NCBI GenBank assembly: GCA_002763895.1
Contig: NSLH01000002.1
Coordinates: 1 to 64,000, forward strand
Length of the DNA: 64,000 nucleotides
Direction of reading: 5' to 3'
From: [Chlorobium] sp. 445
GTDB lineage: Bacteria > Bacteroidota > Chlorobiia > Chlorobiales > Thermochlorobacteraceae
The translations under genes were made by a program, and so were the position numbers. A model generated the notes under the pieces. It made no database searches. It was not told the DNA's origin and saw only the letters and a program-made list of their open reading frames with translations. The stretch's first letter is position 1. Each line of letters opens with the position of its first letter. Shown here one piece after another: positions 51,808 to 60,397 of the stretch.

Positions 51808-51838
51808 TTTGATTTTGTCGTATTGCCAAGTATCTTTG
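51808..51838 (+). promoter_or_regulatory. promoter of topA (full Bacteroidota-type consensus)
   Basis: TTTG (51808-51811), exactly 19 bp, TATCTTTG (51831-51838): a complete match to TTTG-N19-TAnnTTTG, the best promoter in the window. Transcription start near 51845, leader about 68 nt. Confidence 0.75.
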
Positions 51839-54991: not shown

Positions 54992-56521
54992 ATGAGAGTT
55001 GTTATTTCAAAAGTCGACATTCGCTCGCAAGTCTTAGATGCGGCAGGATTTTTTATCTCTAAAGCAGCGCGTGAAAGAGAGCTAAGCGCGCTTTCTGCAA
55101 TTGTCGGCGTCAACACGGCTGGAATAAATGGCGATTTCAAAGCTGGTGAAGGCGATATTCTGATGCTGTATCCAAAGTCTGACACTATTGAAGCCACACG
55201 AGTTTTTTTATTAGGACTCGGCGAACTGACTTCACTGGAGTCTATTCGCAAAGCTGCTGCGGCATTTGCCAGCAAAGCTAGAGAAATGCAACTCGTAAAA
55301 GCTGGCATCGACCTCACAAATGTGCAAACGCTCGCTCAAACTTTGAATGAAGACCTCTCCTATGTGGCGCAAGCTGTCGTCGAAGGATTTGAGTACGGAT
55401 TGTATGAATATACTGCACATAAGACAGACAAAGTCAGCCAGTTGAAGAAAGGTAAAGCCTTCAAGCCTGAAAAGAAAGCGCAGTTCAAAGAGTTAATACT
55501 TTTCACAACCGAACAAGACTTCGACGTCGTCAAGGACGGTGCTGATGTTGGATACATCATCGCCACGTCGCAGTCTATGGTGCGTGACCTTATCAATGCC
55601 CCGAGTAATTATATGACAGCAACAGATATAGCTAATGCTGCAAAGGCTTCTGGCAAAAAGTATGGTTACAAGGTTACCGTATTTGGTAAGGAAAAATTGC
55701 AGCAACTGGGTTTCGGCGGGTTGCTTGGCGTCAATAAAGGAAGCAGTGAGCCGCCCACGTTCTCAATTTTGGAGTATAAGCCTGCAGGCAAAGCGAAAGC
55801 CAAAATTGCTCTCATCGGCAAAGGGGTAACATTTGATACAGGTGGCATTTCGCTCAAACCGTCAGAAAATATGGGCGATATGAAAGCTGATATGTCGGGT
55901 GCCGCTGATGTGATTGGTGCCGTAGAAGCAATTGCACGCCTGAAACTGCCGATTCATGTTATTGGCGCTATCCCAGCAACGGATAACAAACCCAGTGGCA
56001 CAGCTCAAAACCCAGGTGATGTATTAACCACTTACTCTGGAATTACAGTCGAGATCGATAACACCGATGCAGAAGGTCGACTGATTCTGGCTGATGCGCT
56101 CACATACATCAAAGAGCAGTATGAGCCAGATGCAATCATTGACCTTGCAACGCTGACCGGTGCGTGCGTTATTGCTCTGGGCAATCCTGTCGCAGGGCTC
56201 TTTAGCAACAATGATCAACTTGCTGATGCACTCTACAGAGCTGGGCTGCGCTCTGGAGAGAAAGTATGGCGCCTGCCGCTTTGGGACGATTATGACAAGC
56301 AAATCAAATCTGAGGTTGCTGATGTCAAAAACACAGGTGGTAGAGGAGCAGGGGCAATTACAGCGGCAAAGTTTCTGGAAAAATTCATCGGCGATCATCG
56401 CGCGTGGGCGCACCTTGATATTGCTGGTCCTGCATTTCCATCAATGGGTGGTGGACAAAGCAAAGGTAGTTCAGGTTTTGGGGTACGCTTGCTTGTGGAA
56501 GTCTTACGCAACTGGAATTAA
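54992..56521 (+). CDS. pepA: leucyl aminopeptidase (M17 family)
   Basis: A 509-aa cytosolic aminopeptidase. The N-terminal macro-like domain is residues ~1-170; the catalytic domain has LIGKGVTFDTGGISLKPS (Lys and Asp metal ligands), MKADMSGAADVIGAV, and the family signature NTDAEGRLILADAL (about residue 356). It binds two divalent metals and forms hexamers in known members; it recycles peptides. Monocistronic by appearance: promoter upstream, a separate transcription unit starting just downstream. Confidence 0.96.
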   Translation: MRVVISKVDIRSQVLDAAGFFISKAARERELSALSAIVGVNTAGINGDFKAGEGDILMLYPKSDTIEATRVFLLGLGELTSLESIRKAAAAFASKAREMQLVKAGIDLTNVQTLAQTLNEDLSYVAQAVVEGFEYGLYEYTAHKTDKVSQLKKGKAFKPEKKAQFKELILFTTEQDFDVVKDGADVGYIIATSQSMVRDLINAPSNYMTATDIANAAKASGKKYGYKVTVFGKEKLQQLGFGGLLGVNKGSSEPPTFSILEYKPAGKAKAKIALIGKGVTFDTGGISLKPSENMGDMKADMSGAADVIGAVEAIARLKLPIHVIGAIPATDNKPSGTAQNPGDVLTTYSGITVEIDNTDAEGRLILADALTYIKEQYEPDAIIDLATLTGACVIALGNPVAGLFSNNDQLADALYRAGLRSGEKVWRLPLWDDYDKQIKSEVADVKNTGGRGAGAITAAKFLEKFIGDHRAWAHLDIAGPAFPSMGGGQSKGSSGFGVRLLVEVLRNWN

Positions 56522-56548
56522 AAAAATGAAAAAATTTTCTTGCATGTT

Positions 56549-56580
56549 CTTGCGTTTTTCAGATTGAACGTTTATCTTTG
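56549..56580 (+). promoter_or_regulatory. promoter of the candidate small RNA
   Basis: CTTG (56549-56552), 20 bp, TATCTTTG (56573-56580). The -7 element is identical to that of topA. There is no ORF in the following ~230 bp on this strand. Confidence 0.6.
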
Positions 56581-56586
56581 TGTTCA

Positions 56587-56662
56587 CAAGTGGCAAACAG
56601 GTCGCGCCCGCGGCCTGTGGCATACGGTGTGGGGGACGTATGCCAGCCACATTTTTTATTTT
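56587..56662 (+). ncRNA. candidate small RNA with three-way-junction fold and terminator
   Basis: A ~75-nt unit without ORF. The closing stem GTGGC (56590-56594) pairs with GCCAC (56646-56650). Inside are hairpin A, 8 bp (56598-56605 with 56610-56617, loop GCCC), and hairpin B, 9 bp (56618-56626 with 56637-56645, 10-nt loop containing GGGGG). A and B abut without unpaired bases, and B abuts the closing stem. ATTTTTTATTTT follows, so the closed structure ends in a terminator-like U-tract. CCC in loop A could pair with the G-run in loop B. A Bacteroidota-type promoter lies 6-10 nt upstream. It may belong to the described Chlorobi-1 class, which I cannot test; tRNA, SRP RNA, 6S and tmRNA do not fit. 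Confidence 0.6.
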
Positions 56663-56809: not shown

Positions 56810-58468
56810 TCACTCTTCGGGGAACATTGCTTTAAATAAGTGCTCTACTTTTTCCTGTCTAGCGCGTCCCTCTGTGAAGCCTATTGCTGCATAGAAATCA
56901 GCATCGTAGTTGCGCGTGCGAATAACAATAGGCATTGGAACGGCATGACCTAAAATTAAGACTTGCTGGCGCGTATCTAAACTTGCTAAAACATTGCGCA
57001 TGCCACCAGCATTGCTGACACCGCTCAGCACCGCATTGATATCCTTTTCATCGGAGAGTGCCGCAATGATTTTCGTGCCGATTTGGCTGAGCACCTCATC
57101 ATCAATACCAGAGGGGCGCTGGTCGACAAGCAAAAGCGAGACATAATACTTTCGCAGTTCTCGTGCGATTTTGCCAAACGAGGTTTGCGAGGCAGCACGC
57201 GGATTGAGAAACTTGTGTGCTTCCTCAATGGTAATGACAAGTTGCTTTGGCTTATTTTGTAAGCTTTGTGTGCACAGATACTTATCGGTTGCATCTTTGT
57301 AGGCTTTCTCGACGTGGCGCGTGATGATATTGGCAACAAGCAAGTAGCTAAGCATGTTGTCATATTTACCAAACTCGATAACGACACTGACACCGCGCTG
57401 CAAATCCTTAATAAGTTCTTCGATGACATTCAACTTATCTTTATTGTTACTAAAATCTAGAAATTCGCACACTGAGCGGAGTCTACGCAAGCGTCTCAAA
57501 AGGGCTTGCATAGAATTCAGCATGAGATTTTTCTTTTTTGCAAATTCTTGTGCTTCTTCTGGATTGTCCATCAGATTCATGGAGTGGCGTAACCAATCTT
57601 CCCCAAACTCGCCTTTGAGAATGCTTGTATATTCTGCAGCTGTTGGGGGGAGCCCCAGTTCATCTTGCAAAAGCAAAATGTCTTCTGGCTCAATTGTGTT
57701 GGTGCCAAGGCGTACTTCACGATCGCAGTATGCACCACGACTTCGGGTACTGGCAGGGTCGAGCGAGTATATTTTGACCTTGCCGCGTGAGGCAAAGAGC
57801 GGTTGCAAGCCTTTCACAGAAGATTGCCCCGGAGCCTCAGATGTGCCTTTTGTACCATATTCACTGTGCATATCAAAGACGAGATTAACTGCTGTGTCGG
57901 TTTTGATAAGTCCAGCAAGCAATAAGCGCGTAATGAAGGTTTTGCCTGTGCCTGTGCGACCAAAGACTGCACTACTGCGCTCGGCAAAGCGTTCCAAATC
58001 AAGGCAAACAGGTTGCGACATATTGAGCGGCGTGCCAATGTAAAAGAATTTGCGCTTTTCGGTTTCGTTGCGTGATTCTGTGCCGAATACGCTAGCAATG
58101 TCTTCATCAGTAGCTTCAGCTACAGCAGCAAAGTGAGGGGGGATGGTCTTAACTGGTTCTATCACAGCGTCCTTGTGTTTTTCACGCATGAGCATCGGAT
58201 GCAGCGAGACAATCGAGTAGGTCAGCGTGCCAGAAACAATGTGCCGAATTAAGTCATGATGAAAGTTAGGTGGGCTGGAGAGCAAGTCCTCATTTTTAGC
58301 CGCAAGACGCATATCGGTGATAATAGAGAAAAAATCGTATTGCTCGCCTTCCACGACAAGAAATTTTCCAGCTCTGATACTCTCAAGCGGAACATGCTCC
58401 AAGAGCTTCATATCAAGCCCTTCTAAAAGTGAGCCACGAATGATGTTACCAAGTACAGTTCTATTCAT
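56810..58468 (-). CDS. HerA-like ATPase/helicase (DUF87)
   Basis: A 552-aa protein. The N-terminal HAS-barrel (residues ~1-110: GNIIRGSLLEGLDMKLLE) is followed by a FtsK/HerA-type ATPase: AVFGRTGTGKTFITRLL (Walker A), LVFDMHSEYG, LVITIEEAHKFLN (Walker B with Glu) and LLLVDQRPSGID, then a C-terminal helical part. HerA hexamers translocate DNA, usually with the nuclease NurA in end resection; no NurA gene is adjacent. AGGAG 9-10 nt before ATG 58468 supports the start. A TAACTTTG element at 58573-58580 may be its promoter, with a ~100-nt leader. Confidence 0.88.
   Translation of the reverse strand: MNRTVLGNIIRGSLLEGLDMKLLEHVPLESIRAGKFLVVEGEQYDFFSIITDMRLAAKNEDLLSSPPNFHHDLIRHIVSGTLTYSIVSLHPMLMREKHKDAVIEPVKTIPPHFAAVAEATDEDIASVFGTESRNETEKRKFFYIGTPLNMSQPVCLDLERFAERSSAVFGRTGTGKTFITRLLLAGLIKTDTAVNLVFDMHSEYGTKGTSEAPGQSSVKGLQPLFASRGKVKIYSLDPASTRSRGAYCDREVRLGTNTIEPEDILLLQDELGLPPTAAEYTSILKGEFGEDWLRHSMNLMDNPEEAQEFAKKKNLMLNSMQALLRRLRRLRSVCEFLDFSNNKDKLNVIEELIKDLQRGVSVVIEFGKYDNMLSYLLVANIITRHVEKAYKDATDKYLCTQSLQNKPKQLVITIEEAHKFLNPRAASQTSFGKIARELRKYYVSLLLVDQRPSGIDDEVLSQIGTKIIAALSDEKDINAVLSGVSNAGGMRNVLASLDTRQQVLILGHAVPMPIVIRTRNYDADFYAAIGFTEGRARQEKVEHLFKAMFPEE

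Positions 58469-58850: not shown

Positions 58851-60397
<1,547 letters not shown>

Follow-up and report, generated by a model that had tools for sequence, protein, structure and literature searches.

Between pepA and a herA-like gene in the genome of [Chlorobium] sp. 445, a hot-spring relative of the green sulfur bacteria, lies a short, strongly folded stretch that a preliminary description of the sequence had read as a free-standing small RNA, without deciding between the known Chlorobi-1 class and a new one. We asked whether this element is a gene in its own right, to which class it belongs, and how it might act. The window is the whole 64,000-nucleotide stretch of DNA that was analysed, and its relevant features are as follows.

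54992..56521, plus strand: pepA, leucyl aminopeptidase M17 (PF00883, E 2e-126), upstream neighbour.
56549..56580, plus strand: predicted housekeeping promoter of the Bacteroidota/Chlorobi type, with CTTG at 56549-56552, a 20-nt spacer and TATCTTTG at 56573-56580.
56585..56657, plus strand: predicted transcript of the Chlorobi-1-type small RNA, with its 5' end at about 56585-56588 and its 3' end in the U-tract.
56590..56594, plus strand: 5' strand (GUGGC) of the closing stem P0, from the fold, pairing with GCCAC at 56646-56650.
56597..56618, plus strand: hairpin 1 (H1), 9 bp, with loop GCCC at 56606-56609.
56619..56644, plus strand: hairpin 2 (H2), 8 bp, with loop GUGUGGGGGA at 56627-56636.
56646..56650, plus strand: 3' strand (GCCAC) of P0, from the fold, the partner of GUGGC at 56590-56594.
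56652..56657, plus strand: U-tract U6, from the sequence, with one A between P0 and U6.
56810..58468, minus strand: HerA-like ATPase (PF01935, E 3e-30), convergent downstream neighbour.
58851-58923, plus strand: tRNA (Rfam, 68.4 bits), between the herA-like gene and atpD.

The promoter, the closing stem, the two hairpins and the U-tract were all recovered by sequence and fold at the positions originally proposed; the 9 bp and 8 bp hairpins are H1 and H2, respectively, and no nucleotide separates them in the sequence. The P0-H1-H2 structure was the minimum-energy fold (-36.7 kcal/mol, z -4.03), with 0 of 200 shuffles as stable. The TATCTTTG element also stands ahead of topA, at 51831, so the -7 element shared with that gene is real, and the absence of an ORF of note was borne out as well, with the mechanically listed ORFs touching only the upstream part of the RNA region (the ORF at 56160-56567 shares sequence with pepA in a different frame). 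A sigma-70 scan, which is uninformative for the phylum Bacteroidota, gave 0 matches, and the best sigma-54 site at the window copy reached 7/12 against the -24/-12 element. RNA polymerase would start about 5-8 nt past the TATCTTTG box, and transcription would end in the U-tract behind P0. The window copy and that of the sister species end in P0 and a U-tract, and in the window copy P0 and U6 appear to replace the separate rho-independent terminator hairpin found in the majority of other copies, among them the second one of the window genome.

The closest copy was identified in the sister species (G001), likewise 3' of pepA, with 71 of 74 nucleotides identical over 56584-56657 (96%); identity elsewhere was 73.5% in pepA, 59% in the upstream flank and 43% in the downstream flank. 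The sister promoter reads CTTGC...TATACTTG at the matching place, the remaining spacer having diverged. The location between pepA and herA was thus kept on the pepA side only, since a DCC1-like gene lies downstream of the RNA in the sister species and herA is not retained.

We searched the window with the Rfam models, as the preliminary description had proposed for deciding the class. Under a permissive threshold, 56594-56651 matched Chlorobi-1 (RF01696) across the full model with 27.8 bits (E 9e-6 in 401 bases), below the gathering cut-off of 50 bits for RF01696, and at the gathering threshold only the tRNA, and no Chlorobi-1, was reported in the window. The homology is bridged by Chloroherpeton-type copies, which score 52.9 bits with the Rfam model and 68.4 with our own covariance model (R1), and by the recovery with R1 of Chlorobiaceae copies that score >80 bits with Rfam. 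On these scores the window RNA is a divergent Chlorobi-1 variant with an extra closing stem, outside the Rfam cut-off, rather than a new class. It has the linkerless pair of consecutive stem-loops that defines Chlorobi-1 and the same conserved loops, ACGCC(A/C)GU and UGGGGGAC, the latter present here as GCGCCCGC, with loop 1 as GCC(C/A); its inferred independent transcription unit and its restriction to Chlorobi also agree with the class. It differs from RF01696, whose consensus has no P0, in the covarying P0, a loop 2 of 10 nt versus 8 nt, an A-rich linker between P0 and H1, the use of P0 and a U-tract versus a separate terminator hairpin, and a housekeeping versus a sigma-54 promoter. The class itself is known, having been described by Weinberg et al. 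2010 (PMC2864571); what is new is the P0 form under the Rfam cut-off and its distribution.

R1 was built from ten hand-aligned closing-stem copies, and it scored the window copy, a seed member, at 73.7 bits; copies outside the seed scored like seed copies (73.0 bits in G001, 74.0 in G007 and 68.8 in G004). At E <= 0.001, R1 was positive in 9 of 9 genomes of the window's family, in 2 of 2 and 1 of 1 genomes of two other families, and in 36 of 86 Chlorobiaceae, so that all 12 non-Chlorobiaceae Chlorobiales carried a copy. The search of relatives suggested at the outset therefore finds the RNA across the order, and none beyond it: R1 matched 46 of the 394 genomes sampled from the phylum, all in Chlorobiales. 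The Rfam model matched 48 of 61 relatives, some of these matches being weak and possibly due to chance, with 24-37 bits in most genomes of the window's family, 36-53 in the Chloroherpeton-like family and >60 in many Chlorobiaceae; the family labels Chlorobiaceae and Chloroherpeton were inferred for these relatives partly from kinship. A loose pattern scan of named genomes gave two Thermochlorobacter matches and one GBChlB match, which place the window species in Candidatus Thermochlorobacter, and 15 others resembling chance, and the only one of the 15 that was folded, from Alistipes, did not form the structure.

We analysed the conservation of the structure in the ten hand-aligned copies and on an R1-fitted alignment. 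In the former, paired cells amounted to 100% in P0, 98% in H1 and 100% in H2, and all 5 P0 pairs formed in 10 of 10 divergent copies, every pair having changed on both sides. The P0 register was picked per copy from about eight possible ones, which makes the P0 shuffle statistics optimistic, yet chance is still far from explaining ten perfect 5-bp stems of many differing sequences. For the 83 distinct copies of the R1-fitted alignment, covariation scored 0.54, whereas shuffles gave 0.22 and slid partners 0.08-0.12. P0 pairing was 79% outside Chlorobiaceae, a register-limited value, and 50% inside, where the stem is weak or absent.

The promoters separate the Chlorobiaceae copies from the others, most of the former being preceded by a near-perfect sigma-54 promoter. 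A sigma-54 site of at least 10/12 was identified within 90 nt upstream of 47 of 84 copies, versus 262 of 20,000 random windows at the same loci (1.3%); all 47 belong to Chlorobiaceae, with the site mostly at a short, constant spacing ahead of the RNA, and copies of other families never exceeded 9. Chlorobiaceae genomes (29) held 59 perfect sigma-54 sites, compared with 7 for the reversed pattern; 13 of these 59 belong to Chlorobi-1 genes, and many of the rest are found some 100 bp ahead of nifH. One genome (G028) has four perfect sites, three at Chlorobi-1 genes and one 87 bp before nifH, 18 kb from a tandem array. Such arrays comprise 2-4 units spaced by some 230-320 bp, and every unit has a sigma-54 promoter and a terminator to itself (L001, L004, L007, L012 and other Chlorobiaceae loci; G028:C1:1700066-1700576); at least four genomes (G016, G024, G028 and G030) have nifH 12-18 kb away from the array. 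A different arrangement, with two Chlorobi-1 units per putative transcript, has the second unit 64-95 nt downstream with no evident promoter of its own (L035:5421-5546, L036:5586-5742, L111:5294-5451 and L112:5375-5528). Chlorobiaceae also include subtypes without sigma-54 sites, of a loop 2 CCGUGGGGGAAC type and, at other loci, a loop 1 AUGCAAAU type (L042-L046; L021, L041, L047).

Strong nifH matches were found in Chlorobiaceae and Chloroherpeton-type genomes; in the window's family, whose copies have housekeeping promoters, there was no strong match to nifH, and the matches at about 1e-90 there fit bchL. In the window genome a NifH/BchL-like gene is split over two frames as two adjacent matches (G000:C1:226716-227508), perhaps because bchL carries a frameshift or was misassembled. 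Loss of rpoN was rejected as the reason for the promoter change, the gene being present in 31 of 31 genomes searched, and gain or loss of nitrogenase fits only partly, as Chloroherpeton types have nifH with a sigma-54 promoter and Chlorobi-1 copies without one. The restriction of the sites to Chlorobiaceae copies, the presence of rpoN in all genomes searched and the distribution of nifH together point to a sigma-54 control of Chlorobi-1 specific to Chlorobiaceae, which, by inference, is likely part of the nitrogen-fixation regulon. Activator sites (NifA TGT-N10-ACA and NtrC-like) were not enriched upstream of the sigma-54 sites, where the strongest dyads resemble terminators of the tandem copy just ahead. 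We count the sigma-54/nif promoter association of Chlorobi-1 as new, its priority over the 2010 description not being certain.

Whether the element is a gene or a part of one of its neighbours can be judged from its loci. Copies occur at unrelated loci, by pepA, nurA, mdh/agmatine deiminase and CitMHS/TauE genes; those of Thermochlorobacter and Chloroherpeton types are divergent from nurA, and Chlorobiaceae copies lie between mdh and an agmatine-deiminase-like gene. With the pepA end 69 nt upstream, no pepA terminator in the gap and the order of pepA and RNA kept in the sister species, pepA read-through could take in the RNA, and the element might be no more than a pepA 3' UTR or transcription terminator; this seems very unlikely, as the sister species retains the promoter elements that belong to the RNA itself, the RNA recurs away from pepA both in the window genome (second copy, C38:10141-10198, found with R1) and in other families, and the loop and the 96% identity go far beyond what a terminator needs. 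A compact conserved structure with an invariant loop could suit a cis-regulatory element or riboswitch of a neighbouring gene, a reading to which we give next to no weight: neighbours and orientations vary by lineage and no homologous gene consistently follows the RNA, copies frequently diverge from the adjacent gene or face it head-on, every copy ends in a terminator or U-tract, and Chlorobi-1 was scored as not cis-regulatory by Weinberg et al. 2010 (PMC2864571). The varied loci argue against cis elements of one gene as well as against a mere pepA 3' UTR, and with sequence conservation, covariation and the conserved promoter they favour the free-standing small RNA gene originally proposed. 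As separate observations, a nurA-adjacent second copy (L107:4902-6199, equivalent to G000:C38; L031, L032, L110 and L113) extends across Thermochlorobacter and Chloroherpeton types, and the window copy adjoins a herA-like gene, the usual partner of nurA, maybe by coincidence given that the sister species has no herA neighbour.

A trans-acting small RNA is very probably the right description, whether it works by pairing or by binding a protein. The RNA would fold as a three-way junction of P0, H1 and H2 that displays the H2 loop UGGGGGA; its UGGGGG is invariant in every aligned copy while the stems drift freely, which suggests that the loop is the working surface. The reading that we prefer, and consider reasonably probable from these sequence patterns, is an independently transcribed, Hfq-independent RNA of about 70-75 nt, a divergent Chlorobi-1, acting through the G5 loop as a short G-rich seed that would pair with C-rich stretches of target mRNAs. 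Hfq was found in 0 of 15 genomes, contrary to what an Hfq-dependent small RNA would need. The 9-nt loop complement GTCCCCCAC was not enriched outside RNA genes in 9 family genomes and marked no shared gene, and TCCCC showed no enrichment close to start codons in the stretches examined, a low-power test; these results leave seed pairing without positive target support and protein binding nearly as likely, so that pairing is favoured only narrowly. In the protein-binding reading, possible if somewhat doubtful, the UGGGGGA hairpin loop would be a recognition site by which the RNA sequesters a protein or guides it, and tandem copies would raise the dose as in Csr/Rsm decoys with a different protein. 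The invariant loop on drifting stems, the arrays of 2-4 complete units and the lack of enriched complementary sites all agree with it; against it, each unit has one such loop only, no candidate protein gene is consistently linked, and CsrA, the best known protein of this kind, is absent from 16 of 16 genomes, which removes a CsrA decoy from consideration. The loop-loop contact suggested in the preliminary description, a kissing of the H1 and H2 loops (GCCC with GGGGG), is improbable as an intramolecular functional core. The window copy offers CCC:GGG complementarity and GCC opens loop 1 in most copies, as GCC(C/A/U), but the contact is limited to 3 bp, and in about 15 copies loop 1 becomes GCAA, GAAA or GUGA (GCAA and GAAA in Chlorobiaceae) with loop 2 constant, i.e., without covariation, so kissing was dropped as a conserved feature.

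We tentatively propose that Chlorobi-1 could be an order-wide, Hfq-independent regulator of green sulfur bacteria and their relatives, that its ancestral three-way-junction form used a housekeeping promoter, like the form in the window, and that in nitrogen-fixing Chlorobiaceae it may have lost the closing stem, multiplied in tandem and been rewired to sigma-54/NifA, as the first small RNA regulator of nitrogen fixation there. Its coming under sigma-54 control in tandem arrays would most likely have been shared with the nitrogen-fixation genes. Nitrogenase is missing from the window species and a sigma-54 site from its copy, both of which count against our preferred reading with its nitrogen link. 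To our knowledge Chlorobi-1 has no known function and stands in Rfam without one; the question is now testable, since there is a three-way-junction form that covaries and falls outside the threshold, since the working site must be the one invariant loop, and since culturable Chlorobium species carry nifH-type sigma-54 promoters. If true, the proposal would add an RNA layer to the nitrogen control of green sulfur bacteria whose genomes have neither Hfq nor CsrA, and would provide a clear case of one small RNA switched between sigma factors.

Among known systems, the CsrB/RsmZ decoys resemble Chlorobi-1 in their G-rich hairpin loops ending in GGA and their multiple copies, and differ in their dependence on CsrA, which the 16 genomes searched lack. 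Qrr and GlmY are RpoN-controlled small RNAs of other bacteria, and Chlorobiaceae likewise have several similar copies, each with a sigma-54 promoter and a terminator; the window copy has no such promoter, the order is without Hfq, and the likeness rests on promoter arrangement, not on sequence or structure. NsiR1 is a nitrogen-fixation regulatory RNA that lies in tandem repeats, and NfiS is another RNA that regulates nitrogen fixation (PMC6755748). The nif link of Chlorobi-1 is drawn from promoter type and gene distance only, and for Chlorobiaceae only, the window species having no nifH; within that family, the tandem repeats, as in NsiR1, and the possible co-expression of the RNA with nif genes suggest a common logic.
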